A stretch of DNA of 63,454 bases from Paramesorhizobium endophyticum (lineage in GTDB: Bacteria; Pseudomonadota; Alphaproteobacteria; Rhizobiales; Rhizobiaceae), in NCBI RefSeq assembly GCF_014640615.1, contig NZ_BMHH01000022.1, positions 1 through 63,454 on the forward strand, given 5' to 3'. Below, one piece after another: positions 15,592 to 57,916 of the stretch; positions within the stretch are counted from its first letter, which is position 1, and every line of letters starts with the position of its first letter. The position numbers and the translations under genes are program-made. The notes beneath the pieces were generated by a model. That model did not search any database. It was given only the letters and a program-made list of their open reading frames with translations, and had not been told where the DNA came from.

Positions 15592-16725
15592 ATGAATATG
15601 CATGCAATCGAAGCGATGGAAGGCGTGGATCGCCTGGAGATCGTCGAGTCGCCGGACCGCCTGGCGGCGGTCGAGGAGCCGTGGACGCGGCTGTGGCGTG
15701 AATGCGACGGCCTTATCTTCCAGAGCCATGGCTGGGTGTCCGCCTGGTGGAAAACATTGGGGCGCCCGGAGCAGACCGGGCTTCGCATCGGCCTTGCCTG
15801 GAAGGGGGACAGGCTTATCGCCGTCATTCCGCTGGCGATCACCCGGCGGAAGGGGCTGCGCTTTCTTGAATGGGCCGCAGCCGCCCATTCCGACTATTGC
15901 GATATTCTTTGCGCGCCGGAATGTCCGGATGCGGTGCTCGATGCACTGTGGGCCCGCTTATGCAAGGCTGGGGGATTCGACCTTGCCTTCATCAACCGGC
16001 TTTTGCCAGACGCAGCAGCGCGGCGGGTTTTTTCTCCCGGCAAGCGGACAGGCGTGAGGCTTCATCTCAATCACCGGCAGGAAATCAGCTACCGCATTGC
16101 CGGCGATTGGCAGAGCGGGGCGGCCTGGTTCAAGACCCGCTCCACGAACGCCCGCCAAAATCATCGCCGCAAACTGAAGATGCTGGAGAATGGCGGAGCC
16201 CTGCGCATCCGCCTGCTTGGGCCCGACGAGCCACTCGAACCTGTCCTCGACCGGCTGGTGGCGCTCAAGCGGCACTGGCTGGAGAAGAGCGGCCGCTCTT
16301 CCGAGCTTTTCGAGGGCGGGGGACCGGCGCTCAAGGCGTTGGTCGATGTGCTGGCGCGTGCGGGGATACTGCATCTGTTCGTGATCGAGCGTGACGGCAT
16401 CGTTGTCGCCGTTTCGGTCAATTTCGTCCAGCACAACACGATGATGGTCTGGATGCCGACTTACGATGCGGAATTCGCGCGTGCGTCCCCAGGACTGTTG
16501 CTGCTCTTCGAATATGTGCAATGGTCGATCGATCATGGTCTCGGCATGGTCGATCTGCTTTGCGGCGAAGAGGCGTATAAGGGCCGTGTTGCGACCCACA
16601 CCGTCACGTTGGAGACGCTCGTCGGCGCGCGCACGGCGAAGGGCTCGCTCGCGCTGCTCATGGACGGGCTGCGGCAGAAGCTGAGGCGGAAGGAGACGGA
16701 TGTTTCGGCAGAAGATGGGCAGTAG
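15592..16725 (+). CDS. BioF2/CelD-like GNAT-fold acyltransferase
   Basis: A 377-residue protein. The N-terminal half carries FQSHGWVSAWWKTLG, typical of CelD/BcsL-like proteins of polysaccharide clusters. The C-terminal half is a GNAT (acetyltransf_6/BioF2-like) fold with NARQNHRRKLKMLE and LLLLFEYVQWSIDHG. It presumably acylates a sugar or precursor using acyl-CoA in the cytoplasm; the acceptor is unknown. It lies 107 bases after the heparinase-like gene on the same strand, and is followed by a long inverted repeat that separates it from the convergent ligase gene. Confidence 0.75.
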   Translation: MNMHAIEAMEGVDRLEIVESPDRLAAVEEPWTRLWRECDGLIFQSHGWVSAWWKTLGRPEQTGLRIGLAWKGDRLIAVIPLAITRRKGLRFLEWAAAAHSDYCDILCAPECPDAVLDALWARLCKAGGFDLAFINRLLPDAAARRVFSPGKRTGVRLHLNHRQEISYRIAGDWQSGAAWFKTRSTNARQNHRRKLKMLENGGALRIRLLGPDEPLEPVLDRLVALKRHWLEKSGRSSELFEGGGPALKALVDVLARAGILHLFVIERDGIVVAVSVNFVQHNTMMVWMPTYDAEFARASPGLLLLFEYVQWSIDHGLGMVDLLCGEEAYKGRVATHTVTLETLVGARTAKGSLALLMDGLRQKLRRKETDVSAEDGQ

Positions 16726-16737
16726 GGCATAAGCGGC

Positions 16738-16940
16738 GCCAGGCACCCCCTCATCCGACCGCGCTTATGCGCGGCCACCTTCTCCCACAGGGGGAGAAGG
16801 CCGGCGCACTGCACTACCGCTTCCGCCAACCGCTAACGTTGCCAGTTGGGCAATAACCATCATGCCAGACACCTCCCTTCTCCTCTTGTGGGAAAAGGTG
16901 GCCGCGCGTAAGCGCGGTCGGATGAGGGGGTGCCTGGCAA
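16738..16940. repeat. Long inverted repeat (MITE-like), family C, copy 1
   Basis: Two arms of about 60 bases (16740-16800 and 16877-16938) are near-perfect inverted copies, starting AGGCACCCCCTCATCCGACC and containing CGCGCTTATGCGCG. The spacer is about 76 bases. It lies between two convergent genes. A shorter relative is at 41608-41670. Confidence 0.8.
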
Positions 16941-41546: not shown

Positions 41547-41607
41547 CGACCGTTCCGCTCATTTCATTGCGTTCGTTCCGCCCATCCGGTTTGGCATGTG
41601 CTTGCTC

Positions 41608-41670
41608 GCCACCCCTCATCCGGCCCTTCGGGCCATCTTCTCCCACGGGGGAGAAGGGAGGTGCTTGGCA
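41608..41670. repeat. Repeat family C, shorter copy, between exoF and exoQ
   Basis: CACCCCTCATCCGG, a short hairpin CCGGCCCTTCGGGCC, and TTCTCCCACGGGGGAGAAGG resemble one arm of the element at 16738-16940. It lies in the exoF-exoQ gap and could attenuate readthrough into exoQ and exoZ. Confidence 0.6.
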
Positions 41671-44659: not shown

Positions 44660-45757
44660 ATGGCTGCGACAGCGGAGCAGAAAACCACCGTCAACGGGGC
44701 GGATGACAGCGTATGCGTCATCATTGCCGCGAAGAATGCCGCCGATACGATCGGCGCGGCGATAGCCTCGGCATTGAATGAACCGCAGGTGACGGAAGTC
44801 GTGGTGGTCGATGACGGCTCGACGGACGGGACGAGCGAGGCCGCGCGCGCGGCGGATGACGCCAGCGGACGGCTCCGCATCATTCGCTTCGAGGTCAACA
44901 AGGGACCCTCATATGCGCGCAACCAGGCCATCGCCTCGTCATCGGCGGCGCTGATCGCCATTCTCGACGCGGATGATTTCTTTCTTCCGGGCCGTTTTTC
45001 CCATCTCCTGGCAAGGCGGGACTGGGACCTTGCCGCCGACAATATCGTCTTCATCGACCAGCATCGGCTTGGCGGCTTCCATGTCTCGGCGGTGGAACGG
45101 TTTTCGCCCGAGCCGCGCTTCCTCGATCTTCCCACCTTCGTCGAGCGCAACATCTCAAAGCGCAACCGGCAGCGTGGGGAACTGGGTTTCCTCAAGCCGG
45201 TCATCCGGCGCGATTTCCTCGACCGCCACCAATTGCGCTATGACGAAAAGCTGCGGCTCGGCGAGGATTACGATCTGTACACCCGGGCGCTGGCCCTGGG
45301 CGCGCGGTTCCAGATCATCAACAATTGCGGCTATGGCGCGGTGGTCCGGTCCGATTCCTTGAGCGGGCGGCACCGGACGGAGGATCTGAAGGCGCTCGCC
45401 GACGCGGACAGGGCCATTCTGGCAAACGGGCTGCTCACGGGCGAGGCGAGGCAAGCCGTTGCCCGGCACGAACGCCATATGCGCGGGAAATATCATCACC
45501 GGCAGCTGCTGGATGTGAAGGCGCAGCGGGGGATTATCGGGGCGCTGGGCTATTGTGCGAGCAATCCTTCCGCCATCCCGCCGATTGTCCGGGGAGTGGC
45601 GGCGGACAAGCTGGAGGGCTTCATGCGCCCGGGCGGCGGGAAGGCGCAGGCGGACGGGGCGATGGCGCTGCGGTATCTGTTCTCGGGGCGTGTGGTCCGG
45701 GACCCACCCCCCTCTGCCCTGCCGGGCATCTCCCCCTCAAGGGGGGAGATTGGCTGA
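44660..45757 (+). CDS. exoU: Succinoglycan glycosyltransferase ExoU (GT2) with repeat-encoded C-terminus
   Basis: A 365-residue GT-A protein. CVIIAAKNAADTIGAAIASA, VVVDDGSTDGTSEAARA, GPSYARNQAIA and AILDADDFFLPGRF (DxD) match GT2 enzymes of the ExoO/ExoU type. ExoU adds a late beta-1,6-glucose in S. meliloti. The last 17 or so residues (from about codon 349) and the stop codon are supplied by repeat family B, so the native C-terminus has been replaced. It is about 95 bases after exoX on the same strand. ATG 44660 is the only good start. Confidence 0.85.
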   Translation: MAATAEQKTTVNGADDSVCVIIAAKNAADTIGAAIASALNEPQVTEVVVVDDGSTDGTSEAARAADDASGRLRIIRFEVNKGPSYARNQAIASSSAALIAILDADDFFLPGRFSHLLARRDWDLAADNIVFIDQHRLGGFHVSAVERFSPEPRFLDLPTFVERNISKRNRQRGELGFLKPVIRRDFLDRHQLRYDEKLRLGEDYDLYTRALALGARFQIINNCGYGAVVRSDSLSGRHRTEDLKALADADRAILANGLLTGEARQAVARHERHMRGKYHHRQLLDVKAQRGIIGALGYCASNPSAIPPIVRGVAADKLEGFMRPGGGKAQADGAMALRYLFSGRVVRDPPPSALPGISPSRGEIG

Positions 45758-45861
45758 TACAGCCATCCCCGCTCAACTTTCAATGTCGGCGATTGATGCC
45801 GACATCGATGAAGGCTCAATCTCCCCCTTGAGGGGGAGATGCCCGGCAGGGCAGAGGGGCG
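45705..45861. repeat. MITE-like inverted repeat, family B, copy 1 (overlaps exoU 3' end)
   Basis: Arms of about 46 bases at 45705-45752 and 45817-45861 share CCTCTGCCCTGCCGGGCATC, then CTCCCCCTCAAGGGGGAGAT. The interior contains a hairpin ATGTCGGC/GCCGACAT (45783-45805). The left arm encodes the ExoU tail; the right arm ends 22 bases short of the exoV stop. Confidence 0.85.
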
Positions 45862-45882
45862 TACTGTGGCACACCGATATAT

Positions 45883-46842
45883 CTAAAAATACGTCCGCCT
45901 CACCCCCTCGAGCGCCTCTGCAAAACGTTCCTTGCACTCGTCCAGCCGGCCATCGGGGCTCAAGTTCGGCTCGGCTTTGCTTGCCTGCCATAGCGCCAGC
46001 ATCGAGGGGGCGGCGAGGAGGCGTTTGGCGACATTCTTCGCGGAAAAATCCAGCGGCTTGCGGCCTGCGGTGAGGACGGTTCCATCAGGCGCGTGGCGCA
46101 TCCGGACGGGCTCTTCGGCCTGCGGATGGCTGCGGTCTTCATGTTTCAAGCCCCAGAAGCGCTCGCCCTTGAAAATCGCTTCCGCGCGGGTGGAGACCGG
46201 AATCTGACGGGGCTTATAGACCGCGCCGACGGACTGCGCCCAATCGTTCCACTTGAAGCTGTTGATGTTGCCGGAGGTGCTGACGGCGATCCAGGGTACG
46301 CGGAACGCGTCGGCGAGGATGGCGGCGTGCATGGATTCGGCGACGACCAGCTCGGACTGCGCGATCTCGCGAATGACGGATTTCGCCTCGCCGCATGGGT
46401 CGACAAAAGTGAGGCCGACATTTTCGCACACGCTGTCCCAGATGCCGCCGAGGGCCGATTCCCAATGGGGGATGAAGATGGCCTTGTTCTTCTTCGGCAG
46501 GTTCCGGAATTCCGGCATCTCGGTGACCATCACCGCCGGATCGACAATGCCGAGCTTCGGATCGAGCCCCAGCTTGGCAGCGGTTTTCGGGCCGCGCACG
46601 GCGTGGATGTCCCATTCATTGGGGTCGGAAGTATCCGGAGGGGTGTCGTAGCCGTAGCCGCTGCCGATCACCAGTTTCCTGACGTTGTGCGGCAGCAAGG
46701 CGGTGTTCAGGACCGTGCCGACGCCGACAAGCAGCACCTCGTCATGCACCTCGCGCACTCCGGGAAGGAGGAAATCCCAAAGCCAGAGATTGAGATCGTC
46801 GCCAAAGTTCCCGTGGCTGGATTCCCAATGAAACAGACGCAT
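45883..46842 (-). CDS. exoV: Succinoglycan pyruvyltransferase ExoV
   Basis: A 319-residue member of the polysaccharide pyruvyl transferase family, close to S. meliloti ExoV in size. It starts MRLFHWESSHGNFGDDLNLW followed by LWDFLLPG, the family's GNxGDxL motif. GVGTVLNTALL, AVRGPKTAAKLGLDP and VAESMHAAILADAFRVPWIA (the late conserved SxHAAI motif) follow. It transfers pyruvate from PEP to the terminal glucose as a ketal. ATG 46842 is preceded by GGAAGGGGGG. It converges on exoU across repeat B copy 1. Confidence 0.92.
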   Translation of the reverse strand: MRLFHWESSHGNFGDDLNLWLWDFLLPGVREVHDEVLLVGVGTVLNTALLPHNVRKLVIGSGYGYDTPPDTSDPNEWDIHAVRGPKTAAKLGLDPKLGIVDPAVMVTEMPEFRNLPKKNKAIFIPHWESALGGIWDSVCENVGLTFVDPCGEAKSVIREIAQSELVVAESMHAAILADAFRVPWIAVSTSGNINSFKWNDWAQSVGAVYKPRQIPVSTRAEAIFKGERFWGLKHEDRSHPQAEEPVRMRHAPDGTVLTAGRKPLDFSAKNVAKRLLAAPSMLALWQASKAEPNLSPDGRLDECKERFAEALEGVRRTYF

Positions 46843-48672: not shown

Positions 48673-49443
48673 ATGATGTTCTCAAGACCGCTTCGTCCGC
48701 TTCTGGGCCTCATGGCGATGGCGTCCGTGGCGCAAGCGCAGGAGACGGGGAAATCCTTCGTCGAAAATTTCGCCAGCCTCGACAAGCGTCGCTGGTATGT
48801 TTCCAATGGCTGGAGCAATGGCGATCACCAGAACTGCACGTGGTCAGCGGATCAGGTGAAAGTCGCCGACGGCACGCTGAGCCTCGGCTATGAGCGCAAG
48901 CAAACCAAGGACCGCGCCCATGCCTGCGCGGAGATCCAGACCCATGCGCGCTTCGGCCATGGCGTCTATGAAGCACGCATCAAGGCGGCGGCGGGCTCGG
49001 GGTTCAACACCGGCTTCTTCACCTATATCGGCCCCACGCACAAGCAGCCCTGGGATGAGATCGACTTCGAGTTCCTCGGCAAGGATCCGTCGACCGTCCA
49101 GCTCAACTCCTATGTCAATGGCAAGGGCGGGAATGAGAAGCTGGTTCCTGTGCCTGGCGGCGCCAATACGGGATTCAACGATTACGCCTTCGTCTGGGAA
49201 AAGGAGCGCCTGCGCTATTATGTGAACGGCAAGCTGGTCCATACGGTCACCGACCCGGCGGCGCTGCCGACCCATGCGCAGAAAATTTATCTCAGCCTCT
49301 GGGCGAGCGACAAGCTGACGGACTGGCTCGGCAAGTTCGAAAGCCCCGCCGCGCCTTTGAAGGCGGAGTTCACCCGCGTCTCCTTCACGGCGCTGGGCGC
49401 GCCCTGCCAGTTTCCGGAGTCCGTCGCCTGTGACCTTAAATGA
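48673..49443 (+). CDS. exoK: Endo-beta-1,3-1,4-glycanase ExoK (GH16)
   Basis: A 256-residue exported enzyme with a signal peptide (PLLGLMAMASVAQAQ). The GH16 catalytic motif is intact as WDEIDFEFLG at about residues 118-127: the first Glu is the nucleophile and the last the acid/base. YEARIKAAAGSGFNTGFFTY lies just before it, and FVWEKERLRYYVNGKLV after it. ExoK cleaves nascent succinoglycan to low-molecular-weight forms. ATG 48673 is preceded by AAGGAG. The exoL gene follows after 128 bases containing two operator-like motifs and a REP-like element. Confidence 0.94.
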   Translation: MMFSRPLRPLLGLMAMASVAQAQETGKSFVENFASLDKRRWYVSNGWSNGDHQNCTWSADQVKVADGTLSLGYERKQTKDRAHACAEIQTHARFGHGVYEARIKAAAGSGFNTGFFTYIGPTHKQPWDEIDFEFLGKDPSTVQLNSYVNGKGGNEKLVPVPGGANTGFNDYAFVWEKERLRYYVNGKLVHTVTDPAALPTHAQKIYLSLWASDKLTDWLGKFESPAAPLKAEFTRVSFTALGAPCQFPESVACDLK

Positions 49444-49444
49444 T

Positions 49445-49480
49445 TTTGCAGTGCGCCATAGGTATTATTGCAGTGCAGCA
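49445..49480. promoter_or_regulatory. Two candidate operators upstream of exoL
   Basis: TTTGCAGTGCGCC (49445-49457) and TTGCAGTGCAGCA (49468-49480) lie in tandem 92-127 bases before exoL. Both match the TGC-NN-TGC(A/G) core. This is the only tandem arrangement seen. Confidence 0.45.
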
Positions 49481-49522
49481 AAAGCTGTATTACGCTTCAC
49501 CCTCAGATCAACAACTTTAGCC

Positions 49523-49564
49523 GCATGGCCTTACCTGGAAGTCTACAACTTTTCGGGACCATGC
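49523..49564. repeat. REP-like palindrome, family F, copy 2
   Basis: GCATGG...CCATGC arms around an interior (GTCTACAACTTTTCGGG) very like copy 1 at 47016-47058. It ends 7 bases before the exoL ATG and could fold over the ribosome site. Confidence 0.65.
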
Positions 49565-49571
49565 TGGGGGA

Positions 49572-50870
49572 ATGATCGTCATGCTGCAAGTCCTGTACCT
49601 GGTGCATGATCTTTCCGACCCCGCGGTTCGGCGCCGCGTGGTCATGCTGCAGGCAGGCGGCGCCGCGGTGACGCTCGCCGGGTTCCGCCGCAGCCGTGAG
49701 CCGGTGCTTCAGGTAGCAGGGGTTTCGCCCATCGATCTGGGTAAAACCGGCGACGGCCGGTTCGCCCAGCGCATGGCGGCGGTGGCGCGGGCGGCATTGA
49801 CGCTTAAGGCCTCGCTGAAGCACGTGGCGAAGCCCGACGTGATCATCGGGCGCAATCTGGAAATGCTGGCGCTCGCCAACCGGGCGAGGAGCATTTTTTC
49901 GGGCGGGGCAGAAGATATTCCCGTCGTTTATGAATGTCTCGATATTCACCGACTGCTTCTGAGGCAGGATCCGGTGGGGAGGGCGCTCCGCTCCATAGAA
50001 CGCGCGCTTGGCCGCAAGGTGTCGTTGCTCATCACCTCTTCGCCGGCGTTTGTTCGGAATTATTTCGAGCCGTATGGGCAGGTGAATGCGCCGGTGGAGC
50101 TGGTTGAGAACAAGGTGCTGGAGGTGGCGCCGTCGCCCTTCTTCCCCCTTGCGGGGAAGGTGTCTGCGGAGCAGACGGATGGGGGTGGTGACGTTTGCGC
50201 TTTTGCTGGAGATCTTGATGTAAACGTCATCACCCCCATCCGTCCGCTAACGCGGACACCTTCCCCGCAAGGGGGAAGGGGGGGGCCAGGCGAGCCCTGG
50301 AAAATCGGCTGGTTCGGCGCGCTGCGCTGCCGCCGCTCGCTCGCGCTCCTGTCCGAATTCTCGCGGCGGATGGAAGGCCGGGTGGAGATCATCCTGCGCG
50401 GCCGTCCGGCCTATACGGAGTTCGAGGATTTCGACGCTGAGGTTGCCGCCGAGCCGTACATGCAATTCTTTGGGTCCTACCGCAACCCGGAAGACCTTTC
50501 GGGCATTTATGGCGAGGTGCATTTCACCTGGGCCATCGATTTCTTCGAGGAGGGGCTGAACTCGAGCTGGCTCCTTCCGAACCGGCTCTATGAGGGCTGC
50601 CGCTATCATTGCGTGCCCATCGCCATGGAGGGAACCGAGACGGCGCGGTTCCTTAAACGGCTGGGCATCGGCTTCACGCTGGCCCGGCCTGATGCGGACG
50701 AACTTGCCCGCCTGCTCGATGCGGAGCGATACGAGCAGGCGCGCGCGAGGGTCGCCGCGCAGGATTCAAGCACATGGATATGCAACGAAGATGATTGTCG
50801 TGCGTTGGTAGGCCGCTTGAGCACGCTCTTGTCCGTGCGCGAGCGCGTCGTCTTGCCGGCTGCGGCGTAG
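49572..50870 (+). CDS. exoL: Succinoglycan glycosyltransferase ExoL with in-frame palindromic insert
   Basis: A 432-residue GT-B protein. The N-terminal Rossmann domain has VLYLVHDLSDPAVRRRVVML and KPDVIIGRNLEMLALA. The C-terminal domain begins WKIGWFGALRCRRSLALLSE and continues YMQFFGSYRNPEDLSGIYGE, HFTWAIDFFEEGLNSSW and a late EG.ETARFLKR segment. ExoL adds the beta-1,4-glucose after ExoA in S. meliloti. Residues about 188-237 are repeat family D read in frame; they sit exactly between the two Rossmann domains and contain no internal start that would avoid them. Assignment to ExoL is by position and fold. Confidence 0.82.
   Translation: MIVMLQVLYLVHDLSDPAVRRRVVMLQAGGAAVTLAGFRRSREPVLQVAGVSPIDLGKTGDGRFAQRMAAVARAALTLKASLKHVAKPDVIIGRNLEMLALANRARSIFSGGAEDIPVVYECLDIHRLLLRQDPVGRALRSIERALGRKVSLLITSSPAFVRNYFEPYGQVNAPVELVENKVLEVAPSPFFPLAGKVSAEQTDGGGDVCAFAGDLDVNVITPIRPLTRTPSPQGGRGGPGEPWKIGWFGALRCRRSLALLSEFSRRMEGRVEIILRGRPAYTEFEDFDAEVAAEPYMQFFGSYRNPEDLSGIYGEVHFTWAIDFFEEGLNSSWLLPNRLYEGCRYHCVPIAMEGTETARFLKRLGIGFTLARPDADELARLLDAERYEQARARVAAQDSSTWICNEDDCRALVGRLSTLLSVRERVVLPAAA
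50136..50284. repeat. Long inverted repeat, family D, inside exoL
   Basis: Arms of about 60 bases (50136-50196 and 50222-50283) are inverted copies, including CTTCCCCCTTGCGGGGAAGG and AGACGGATGGGGGTG, with a spacer of about 25 bases. The full element is translated in frame as about 50 residues. Confidence 0.88.
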
Positions 50871-50897
50871 AGGATGGAACAGGAGAGGGGACTTAAG

Positions 50898-51902
50898 ATG
50901 CCAGGCGCAAAAGAGCGGAGGTTTTCGGGCCGTTGCCTCATCATCATTCCTTGCCTGAACGAGGCCGGCTTCATCGGCGCGCTGCTGGAGCAATTCAGCC
51001 TGGAAGCCGAACAGCTCGACATGAAGATCGTCGTGGCCGATGGCGGCAGCACCGATGGGACCGTGCACATTGTCGAGGACATCATGCAGCGCAATCCGCG
51101 TGTCGTGCTCCTGCACAATGAAAAGCGCATCCAGAGCGCCGCGGTCAATCTGGCTGTAGCCGCCCATGGCGATGGCTACGACTATTTCATCCGCATCGAC
51201 GCGCATGGAAAATATCCGGCGGATTATTGCAGAACGCTGGTCGAGGAAGCCCATATCACGGGCGCCGATTCCGTCGTGGTCGCCATGGCGACGGAGGGTT
51301 TCAGCCTATTCCAGAAGGCGACTGCTGCGGCGCAGAATTCCCGGCTCGGCAATGGCGGCTCCAAGCATCGCAAGGGCGCGAAGGGTGGCTGGGTCGATCA
51401 TGGCCACCATGCGCTGATGAGCATAAAGGCGTTCCAGCAGGTGGGCGGGTATGACGAGACGTTCACCCATAACGAGGATGCCGAGCTTGATTACCGGCTG
51501 AGAAAAGCGGGCTTCCGCATCTGGATGACCGACCGGACGGTGATGGTCTATTATCCCCGCGCGTCCGCGTCTTCGCTCTTCCGGCAATATCTGGGCTATG
51601 GCCGGGGCCGGGCGAAGAATGTGCTCAAGCACCGCGTCGTGCCAAAGCTGCGGCAGGCCCTTCCGTTGCTGGTGCTGCCGGTGGTGGCGGGCACCTTCCT
51701 CGCCGTCATCCATTGGTCCGCCGCCGTGCCCGCCTTCCTGTGGGTGGCGATCTGCATGGGCTATGGCGTATGGATGGCCGTGGGCGAGCGCAATCCTTAC
51801 GGCCCGCTCGCGGCGGTTTCCGCGATGATCATGCACCTCGCCTGGTCGCTGGGATTCTGGCTCCAACTCATCGGCTTCCGCAAGCGCAGGGAGCCATCGT
51901 GA
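50898..51902 (+). CDS. exoA: Succinoglycan glycosyltransferase ExoA (GT2)
   Basis: A 334-residue protein. GT2 domain: CLIIIPCLNEAGFIGALLEQ, VVADGGSTDGTVHIVEDIM, FIRIDAHGKYPADYC (DxD-type) and VGGYDETFTHNEDAELDYRL. Two or three C-terminal TM helices follow (LLVLPVVAGTFLAVIHW; AAVSAMIMHLAWSLGFWL), as in ExoA, which adds the first beta-1,3-glucose to galactose. The start at ATG 50898 is preceded by GAGAGGGGAC; ATG 50874 is in frame. Its stop overlaps a downstream ATG (TGATG) in front of exoM. Confidence 0.9.
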   Translation: MPGAKERRFSGRCLIIIPCLNEAGFIGALLEQFSLEAEQLDMKIVVADGGSTDGTVHIVEDIMQRNPRVVLLHNEKRIQSAAVNLAVAAHGDGYDYFIRIDAHGKYPADYCRTLVEEAHITGADSVVVAMATEGFSLFQKATAAAQNSRLGNGGSKHRKGAKGGWVDHGHHALMSIKAFQQVGGYDETFTHNEDAELDYRLRKAGFRIWMTDRTVMVYYPRASASSLFRQYLGYGRGRAKNVLKHRVVPKLRQALPLLVLPVVAGTFLAVIHWSAAVPAFLWVAICMGYGVWMAVGERNPYGPLAAVSAMIMHLAWSLGFWLQLIGFRKRREPS

Positions 51903-53170
51903 TGAGTGCCCTTCACTCTCGTGGGCCGCGAGGCACCCCCCTCTGCCCTGCCGGACATCTCCCCCACAAGGGGGGAGATTGGGCCTTCATAGACGCGCGG
52001 CACCAATCGCTGACCTCGCAGGATGAGGGCGGAGCGTCGTGTCAGCCAATCTCCCCCCCCGTGGGGGAGATGCCCGGCAGGGCAGAGGGGGGTACCTTGC
52101 GCCGCCGCTTCCATTTCAATGTGAAAAGCTCAAGCGCCGGTTCAGATGATAAAGAGCGACCTTCCAGTAGCCCTCATCCTGAGGTGCGAGCGCAGCGAGC
52201 CTCGAAGGGCGACGGCGACAGCCACCCCCTCTATCGAATTGATATCGGCGTCTGCACCTATCGCCGCCCGGAACTGGAGGCGACGCTCATCTCGCTCGGG
52301 CGGCTGGCGGTTCCGGCGGATTGCAGCATCCGCGTCATTGTAGCCGACAATGATGTCACCCCGAGCGCGAAGGAGCGTGTGGTCAAGCTCGCCGCTACGC
52401 TACCCTTCGAAATTACCTATGTTCACTGCCCCGCCTCGAATATCTCCATTGCGCGCAATGCCTGTCTCGATACGAGCGATGGCGATTTTCTTGCTTTCAT
52501 CGATGATGATGAAACGGCGTCGGAGAACTGGCTGGCTGCGTTACTTGCCATCGCTAAGGAGACGAAAGCCGATGCCGTGCTGGGGCCGGTTCAGGCCATT
52601 TATGAGCCCCAAGCGCCGCGCTGGATGCGCAAGGGGGATTTTCACTCGACCTTTCCGGTCTGGGTGAAAGGCGAAATCCGCACCGGCTATACCTGCAACG
52701 TGCTTTTGCGGCGTGCTTCGCCTGCAGTTGCCGGACGGCGTTTCAGCCTGGCGCTGGGACGCAGCGGCGGGGAGGATACGCAATATTTCTCCGAACTCCA
52801 TGAGGCAGGCGGCAGGATCGCCTTTGCGCCCGAGGCCTGGGTGCATGAGCCGGTGCCGGAAGGCCGGGCGCGGTTTTCATGGCTCGCCAAACGGCGGTTC
52901 CGTTTCGGGCAGACGCATGGCCGGCTGCTTCAACGCAATGCGGCGGGCTTCGGCCTTGTGAGGCAATTGGCCCTCGCTACCGCCAAAGCCGCTTACAGCT
53001 TCGGCGCGGCGCTTCTCACCCTGTTCTCTTCCACGCATCGCAACCGCTCCATCCTGCGCGGCGTCATGCATGTGGGCGTCGTCAGCGGCCTGATCGGCAT
53101 CCGGGAAATCCAGCAATATGGCAAGCCCGCCATCGTGCCCTCAGGCGGAGGCAAGTCCCGTGCAACCTGA
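51902..53170 (+). CDS. exoM: Succinoglycan glycosyltransferase ExoM (GT2) with repeat-derived N-terminal extension
   Basis: From the coupled ATG 51902 the frame has 422 residues; the ExoM-like domain begins only at about residue 111, with YRIDIGVCTYRRPELEATLI. It continues RVIVADNDVTPSAKERV, NISIARNACLDTSDGDFLAF and IDDDETASENWLA, and EIRTGYTCNVLLRR. The first 110 or so codons are two repeats in a row (family B copy 2 and a short REP-like element). ExoM itself should be about 310 residues. Translation may instead start at ATG 52070 or GTG 52184, both in frame and inside the repeats. ExoM adds a beta-1,4-glucose in S. meliloti. Confidence 0.85.
   Translation: MSALHSRGPRGTPLCPAGHLPHKGGDWAFIDARHQSLTSQDEGGASCQPISPPVGEMPGRAEGGTLRRRFHFNVKSSSAGSDDKERPSSSPHPEVRAQRASKGDGDSHPLYRIDIGVCTYRRPELEATLISLGRLAVPADCSIRVIVADNDVTPSAKERVVKLAATLPFEITYVHCPASNISIARNACLDTSDGDFLAFIDDDETASENWLAALLAIAKETKADAVLGPVQAIYEPQAPRWMRKGDFHSTFPVWVKGEIRTGYTCNVLLRRASPAVAGRRFSLALGRSGGEDTQYFSELHEAGGRIAFAPEAWVHEPVPEGRARFSWLAKRRFRFGQTHGRLLQRNAAGFGLVRQLALATAKAAYSFGAALLTLFSSTHRNRSILRGVMHVGVVSGLIGIREIQQYGKPAIVPSGGGKSRAT
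51932..52096. repeat. MITE-like inverted repeat, family B, copy 2 (inside exoM frame)
   Basis: Arms at 51932-51982 and 52046-52096 begin and end with GGCACCCCCCTCTGCCCTGC or its inverse. The interior (CAATCGCTGACCTCGCAGG, then GGAGCGTCGTGTCAG) is nearly identical to copy 3 at 57499. Confidence 0.88.
52166..52212. repeat. Short REP-like element inside the exoM frame
   Basis: CATCCTGAGGTGCGAGCGCA followed by GCGAGCCTCGAAGG folds on itself. It is read in frame as PHPEVRAQRASKG, a peptide commonly seen where this Hyphomicrobiales intergenic repeat is translated. Confidence 0.75.
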
Positions 53171-57475: not shown

Positions 57476-57498
57476 ACGGAAACGTTGGCAGGACAGTA

Positions 57499-57626
57499 AC
57501 CCCCTCTGCCCTGCCGGGCATCTCCCCCACAAGGGGGGAGATGGGGCCTTCATAGGCACGCAGCACCAATCGCAGACCTCGCAGGATGAGGGCGGAGCGT
57601 CGTGTCAGCTAATCTCCCCCCTTGTG
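57499..57626. repeat. MITE-like inverted repeat, family B, copy 3, right arm truncated
   Basis: The left arm (57499-57543) and interior match copy 2 almost base for base, but the right arm stops after CTAATCTCCCCCCTTGTG and passes straight into coding-type sequence of a uracil-DNA-glycosylase remnant. It begins 24 bases after exoP. Confidence 0.85.
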
Positions 57627-57916
57627 AAGCCGACCGCCGGCGAGGTCAAGCGCTATCGCTGGTGGCTGGAAAAGAACTCGACTTCGTTCACCCCCATCTC
57701 GTGGTGGCGCTCGGGGCCACGGCGGCGCTGGCGCTCGCCGGGCGGGCGACGCCCATCGGGCGCAATCGCGGGCCGTTCGATTTCGGCGGGCGCGCGGGGT
57801 ACATCACCGTTCATCCCTCCTATCTTCTGCGTGTGCCGGACGAGACGGCGCGGCACCAGGCCTATACAGAGTTCGTCGCGGACCTCGAGCGCATCCGCGC
57901 GCTTGCGCGGAGTTAA
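57627..57916 (+). pseudogene. C-terminal remnant of a UdgX-type uracil-DNA glycosylase
   Basis: The first frame reads KPTAGEVKRYRWWLE, then shifts at the A-run 57670-57673 into ELDFVHPHLVVALGATAALA, RGPFDFGGRAGYITVHPSYL and RVPDETARHQAYTEFVADLE to a stop at 57916. This is the last third of UdgX-family proteins, with the conserved VALGATA and TVHPSYLLR motifs. The N-terminal iron-sulphur part is missing and repeat B copy 3 abuts the break. One A seems to have been lost. Confidence 0.75.

Follow-up and report, generated by a model that had tools for sequence, protein, structure and literature searches.

A dispersed palindromic repeat lying in frame in the variable linker of an ExoL-like glycosyltransferase of Paramesorhizobium

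Dispersed palindromic repeats of bacteria have been described both between and within genes, and the descriptions in this paragraph follow the parts of the cited sources that were accessible. In Rickettsia and Wolbachia, the RPE/WPE elements are dispersed palindromes of 100-150 bp, some of which lie in open reading frames with the frame intact and at solvent-exposed positions; different element groups can adjoin one position in orthologues (PMC3767692, PMC2229807), and it was left undecided whether such a position is a hotspot struck more than once or holds a single old insert that has diverged (PMC3767692). The case of gmk provides the precedent of a decorated protein that is expressed and active (PMC2229807). 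The GTAG/CGTC REPs, units of 20-40 bp, are found in intergenic regions and within open reading frames, where flexible linkers or loops were suggested as their location, and different REPs occupy approximately the same site of recB in two Xanthomonas species (PMC3733652). MITE-like repeats, including ERIC/RU-1, RU-2 and Correia, are fused in frame to genes (PMC2229807). RIME, Sm-repeats and ABC motifs are dispersed intergenic palindromes, present in dozens per rhizobial genome (PMC2573895), and rhizobial repeats were described as intergenic (PMC2573895, PMC2873474, PMC5082802). Near polysaccharide genes, an intergenic REP was reported beside exoN in Bradyrhizobium (PMC5082802) and flanking GTAG arrays in Thauera (PMC3733652). 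Searches confined to open-licence papers listed no palindrome lying in frame in an exo gene, and none in Phyllobacterium.

The locus described here lies in a window of 63,454 nucleotides (the whole stretch of DNA analysed) from Paramesorhizobium endophyticum. An intact exoL-like gene has neighbours encoding an acyltransferase, a GH16 glucanase and three GT2 proteins, a neighbourhood that resembles the gene order exoHKLAMO. The features of the gene are as follows.

49572..50870, + strand: exoL-like glycosyltransferase gene, 432 aa, intact frame (ORF check; Pfam PF13579, residues 19-180)
50127..50297, + strand: whole ExoL linker of the window, 57 codons (alignment; median 19 aa in 86 homologues)
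50136..50284, no strand: 149-bp near-perfect palindromic repeat, reading FFPLAGKVSAEQTDGGGDVCAFAGDLDVNVITPIRPLTRTPSPQGGRG in translation (inverted-repeat search, family alignment, folding, frame analysis)
50136..50168, + strand: outer left arm of the repeat (inverted-repeat search)
50170..50196, + strand: inner left arm (inverted-repeat search)
50222..50248, + strand: inner right arm (inverted-repeat search)
50251..50283, + strand: outer right arm (inverted-repeat search)
50298..50867, + strand: conserved C-terminal half of ExoL, starting WKIGWFG (homologue alignment)

The outer arms of the repeat (33 nt) are 91% complementary and the inner arms (27 nt) 93%, with 25 nt separating the latter. 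The 149 nt fold at -129.8 kcal/mol as RNA (z -15.7) and at -70.6 as DNA (z -14.8), and none of 200 shuffles folded as well in either case, which rules out a chance inverted repeat. A search of Rfam over 49000-51500 gave no family at gathering score; eight of its nine weak matches were microRNA hairpins.

To place the repeat in the protein, the linker was measured between ENKVLE. and WKIGWFG in 86 ExoL homologues (the window protein, the best 80 of at least 581 candidates, and five from further genomes), and the genus was sampled by six genomes: the window genome (G000), Phyllobacterium leguminum ORS 1419 (G001), a congener (G002), Paramesorhizobium deserti (G003), P. phragmitis (G004) and P. 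salinisoli (G005). The linker comprises 15-24 residues in 84 of the 86 homologues, and the repeat is carried only by the window protein (57 residues) and that of P. leguminum (50 residues), that is, by two of the six species of the genus. About seven native residues are left around the 50 repeat-encoded ones in the window; given the median of 19, this amounts to a net gain of 38 residues and a loss of about 12 native ones. The initial annotation had described a 149-base inverted repeat inside an intact exoL, which was borne out, and a clean insert of about 50 residues, which was not, about 50 residues being encoded for a net gain of about 38. Its view that no internal start bypasses the repeat is sound, because the N-terminal half is encoded ahead of the repeat, on its 5' side, and any start that keeps this half precedes it. 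The same segment was not found in distant genera: it is absent from those 84 homologues, and when the repeat model was run over 884 kb from 80 named exoL loci, only the P. leguminum locus reached an E value of 0.1 or better.

The N-terminal half of ExoL is the Pfam Glyco_trans_4_4 match, and the C-terminal half is not recognized by Pfam. Among the matches listed, the best named homologues belong to Phyllobacterium, Paramesorhizobium, Chelativorans, Mesorhizobium, Rhizobium and Sinorhizobium. As no homologue of solved structure gave a credible match (best E 0.4), it is from the alignment and the N-terminal GT4 match, ending at residue 180, that we infer a GT-B enzyme whose two Rossmann domains the linker would join. 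Both halves flanking the repeat are under purifying selection, with dN/dS of about 0.2 between the window species and P. leguminum (0.133/0.564; 0.147/0.771), and the invariant residues of the family are retained. In the N-terminal half, dN was 0.117-0.134 in the five pairs that include the window genome and 0.048-0.088 in the 10 pairs that do not; this faster change could reflect relaxed constraint or a long branch.

The arm sequence, for which the initial annotation had proposed a genome search, recurs: the first search located 40 places among the best 40 of 181 candidates, and the alignment of these copies showed 85% mean column identity and two arm types in various combinations. A model of 146 positions gave 151 matches in the window genome, 150 in P. 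leguminum, 32 in P. phragmitis, 10 in G002, 4 in P. deserti and 3 in P. salinisoli, a palindrome being counted on both strands and the best 150 candidates being taken per genome (of 3947 in the window genome). Within the retrieved stretches there are 78 full copies in the window genome and 35 in P. leguminum; the former number is a lower bound, because only the best 40 of 181 and the best 150 of 3947 candidates were scored, and the latter is part of a larger number. The arm sequence may resemble the rhizobial repeats of the RIME, Sm and ABC types. Plasmid carriage was rejected, with one match, covering 17% of the query, in 72,556 plasmid records, and in viral contigs two stretches matched a pattern, neither of which encoded a relative. 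In the window itself, weak matches at 16668-16796, 41600-41657 and 45632-45911 point to palindromic repeats of other kinds, located at the ends of genes or close to them.

Based on a codon-usage (coding-score) gene caller, 74 of the 78 copies in the window genome are intergenic, two overlap gene ends and two are intragenic (exoL and cobG), in stretches of which 82.8% is coding; in P. leguminum 32 of 35 are intergenic, one lies at a gene end and two are intragenic (exoL and nasA). The intergenic copies with two neighbours (n = 70) occupy 45 co-directional, 23 convergent and 2 divergent gaps. These stretches also contain 201 repeat-free gaps of at least 40 bp, 66 of them divergent and 20 convergent, a background that overstates the divergent share by excluding the gaps that hold repeats. 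Avoidance of divergent gaps and preference for convergent ones is the habit of REP-like elements of gene 3' ends. The four genic copies (two in exoL, one each in cobG and nasA) are all in frame, at places where relatives differ in length. Open frames with at least 60 codons on both sides of a full copy numbered 17 (16 copies), four of them genic by coding score. Family scans covered 10 of the 13 non-genic frames, leaving out L039:2742-3353, L167 and L162: L160, L174, L192, L171, L076 and L039:2818-4293 matched no NCBIfam or Pfam family, L052 no NCBIfam family, L038 and L206 no Pfam family, and L212 had a FadJ match downstream of the repeat only.

When the reading frames of the copies were counted by both arms, the non-genic copies gave 249 readings free of stops, 31 of them in the phase PLAG...SPQGG, which was used by three of the four genic copies; the ending SPQGG was found in 99 of the 249 and in all four. 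The exception in phase is the exoL copy of P. leguminum, whose left arm is read in another frame. This bias, a post hoc observation on only four copies, hints at selection on the repeat peptide and thereby at its translation.

Other conserved enzymes carry comparable in-frame segments in variable stretches. In CobG of the window genome (TIGR02435, 353.7 bits in two stretches), the family found in exoL lies in frame at a site spanned by the Pfam NIR_SIR match (111-305), so that the site is a loop and not a joint between Pfam domains; other segments stand there in G002 and P. deserti, and none in P. leguminum, P. phragmitis, P. salinisoli or two more distant genomes. In NasA of P. leguminum, a copy lies in frame between the Molybdopterin and Molydop_binding matches. 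The same site contains another family, with the motifs TPLWPAGHLP and ISPLEGEMPGRAEGG, in the window genome, G002, P. deserti and P. phragmitis, a short remnant-like piece in P. salinisoli, and nothing in the five aligned genomes of other genera. A second NasA site is occupied in P. leguminum and P. phragmitis; the P. leguminum protein (L077:1822-5106) has two different in-frame repeat segments, soon after LDGRLLFPEI and at residues 708-751. CobN has segments with the motifs of a further family, here called family B, in five of the six species and in two forms, and a remnant-like piece in the sixth, a pattern which suggests that repeat-derived segments can stay in frame for as long as the genus has existed.

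That family B is repetitive is judged by its copies in the window genome, with at least 150 matches (best 150 of 568 candidates, both strands); the other segments of CobG, NasA and CobN are putative repeats. One family-B copy lies close to exoL, in the adjoining ExoM-like gene.

51929..52096, no strand: family-B copy in the ExoM-like GT2 frame, between ATG 51902 and the GT2 domain, its translation depending on ATG 51902 being the true start

The ATG of this gene (51902-53170) overlaps the stop of exoA, and relatives have the same apparent start. A second repeat-like segment lies at about 52163-52213, with a similar one in P. leguminum, and initiation at a GTG, 52184, could leave most of the repeat-derived sequence untranslated. 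Elsewhere in the window, at 57498-57916, a family-B copy stands just upstream of an 84-codon frame, which is probably a gene remnant, as it matches the uracil-DNA glycosylase profile in the second half only (profile positions 78-140 of 141). In the window genome, there are also family-B copies whose frame continues into the N-terminal part of a gene, namely NicO, secretin, permease-like and dehydrogenase genes (L271, L284, L294 and L160); the starts are ambiguous and these frames were excluded from the genic cases. At somewhat less than an even chance, the variable linkers and loops of conserved enzymes in this genus may be re-used palindrome sites, at which unrelated families would come to occupy one linker in different species by separate insertion or displacement, with residues removed and the frame kept; repeats, and not point changes, would then supply much of linker evolution.

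The palindrome search, the genomic copies and the homologue alignments agree with the initial annotation: a dispersed palindrome interrupts neither the frame nor the conserved halves of ExoL but lies at the variable joint of the two. The reading that we favour, at a probability of roughly 0.8, is that a non-coding dispersed palindrome landed in this linker with the frame kept and is translated as a neutral or mildly costly spacer. A palindrome of REP or MITE size would have multiplied within the genus and persisted between genes, mostly downstream of them; one copy would have arrived in the hypervariable linker of ExoL, ousting some 12 residues; as the copy could be read in a phase without stops and its net length was a multiple of three, ExoL would have stayed whole, by which the copy escaped purging; and the repeat in exoL would now be transcribed and translated into a hydrophilic, probably disordered segment. 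An alternative is that the insert is selected, its hairpin modulating how the exo operon is transcribed, processed as mRNA or translated, or its peptide altering ExoL. The strength of the message hairpin (-129.8 kcal/mol) and the REP-like placement of intergenic copies (2 divergent and 23 convergent gaps of 70) speak for such a role, but the repeat is present in only two of six congeners, with different sequences, and is lacking in 84 of 86 homologues, and we regard a selected insert as unlikely. Still less probable is a decaying pseudogene with an accidentally open frame: decay would fit the slightly raised rate of amino-acid replacement in the N-terminal half, but not the 432-codon frame, the invariant residues and the dN/dS of about 0.2, and a second species, P. 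leguminum, combines the repeat with an intact frame. Repeats can mislead assembly, and the locus was judged from the assembled sequence alone; nevertheless, the exoL copy is in frame and unlike any of 112 other copies compared (best 89%), and the identical site of P. leguminum is occupied by a different copy, which makes a copy misplaced into exoL by assembly barely credible.

Whether the exoL repeats of the two species stem from a single insertion, received by descent or by transfer between the lineages with the exoL-exoA-exoM region and followed by alteration of one copy through exchange with genomic copies, or to two hits in exoL is a matter of even odds. For one insertion, the 3' junction is identical, with both genes reading GCCAGGCGA after the repeat, and the 5' junctions are about 1 nt apart; exoA (50874-51902) groups G000 with G001 (97 when an outgroup was included and G005 omitted; a split at 100 when no outgroup was used), as did the first tree of CobG proteins (82); and the ExoM proteins of both species share a like N-terminal segment, SSSPHPEVR...ASKG, absent from ExoM of the three other congeners examined. 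Against it, the two exoL copies belong to different subfamilies, with a long and a short loop, and differ in left-arm frame; the copy of the window genome is closest to L038/L039 of that genome and that of P. leguminum to its own nasA copy. Six joined genes (codons) give G000+G002 (SH-aLRT 100, bootstrap 96), with G001 beside G004 and G005 (88.6/74), and reject G000+G001 (AU 4.5e-115); NasA alone also gives G000+G002 at 100. The repeat-free linkers of G002-G005 (19, 19, 19 and 23 aa) are alignable and near ordinary length and therefore look ancestral, never occupied. The flanking 120 nt show no clear excess of identity between G000 and G001 (75.8 and 86.7%, versus 72.5-75.0 and 83.3-87.5% with other species). 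Single-gene trees conflict, several placing G000 outside the rest, and rpoB codons by themselves have little resolving power, whether or not outgroups are added (43; G000+G002 at 85 in another tree). Over the exo region, G000 is about equidistant from each of the five species, even from its sister at the genome level, G002 (whose alignment is poor before 48600). Given these conflicts and the equidistance, the exo region of the window species may have a history of its own, and the contradiction between the exoA grouping and the six-gene tree suggests that it may have been exchanged.

As to how the element moved, no direct repeat was prominent beside the 83 alignable copies, whose element ends are fuzzy, and at the 3' junction, which was examined for microhomology, the repeat end is weakly conserved. 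REP mobilization by a RAYT was considered and found no support: a Y1 transposase (PF01797) occurs in just two of the six genomes and is missing from the copy-rich P. leguminum, and the match of the window genome, presumably IS200-like, contains a stop. As neither a target-site duplication nor a RAYT-type partner was detected, mobility is deduced from dispersal; template switching or the in-trans action of some transposase may have been at work. Related species, including four named isolates, supply occupied and empty alleles of the same linkers, and CobG and NasA offer different segments at one place together with remnant-like pieces, which makes the hotspot question, the cost of a translated palindrome and the share of repeats in linker evolution testable here.

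Compared by description, the window family is like RIME, Sm-repeats and ABC motifs a dispersed palindrome, but it has intragenic copies. Like the GTAG/CGTC REPs it is both intergenic and intragenic, but it measures about 146 positions, has no terminal GTAG in its consensus, and no RAYT-type partner was found for it. Several of the MITE-like repeats (ERIC/RU-1, RU-2, Correia) are listed with target-site duplications in the accessible part of the source, whereas none stood out beside the copies of the window family. The initial annotation's comparison with the RPE of Rickettsia is apt as an analogy: the window element is likewise a dispersed palindrome of about 100-150 bp with copies in frame in conserved protein genes (exoL, cobG and nasA) that remain unbroken. 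It differs in its GC-rich, non-rickettsial host of Phyllobacterium type, in the small minority of genic copies (2 of 78) and in the replacement of linker residues, the likeness being one of description. As far as the accessible parts of the sources extend, in-frame palindromes are thus a known kind, familiar above all from Rickettsia and Wolbachia, with fusions of MITEs or REPs to genes in other bacteria (PMC3767692, PMC2229807, PMC3733652); what is new here is the host group, the minority status of the genic copies and the presence of several families at the same places.
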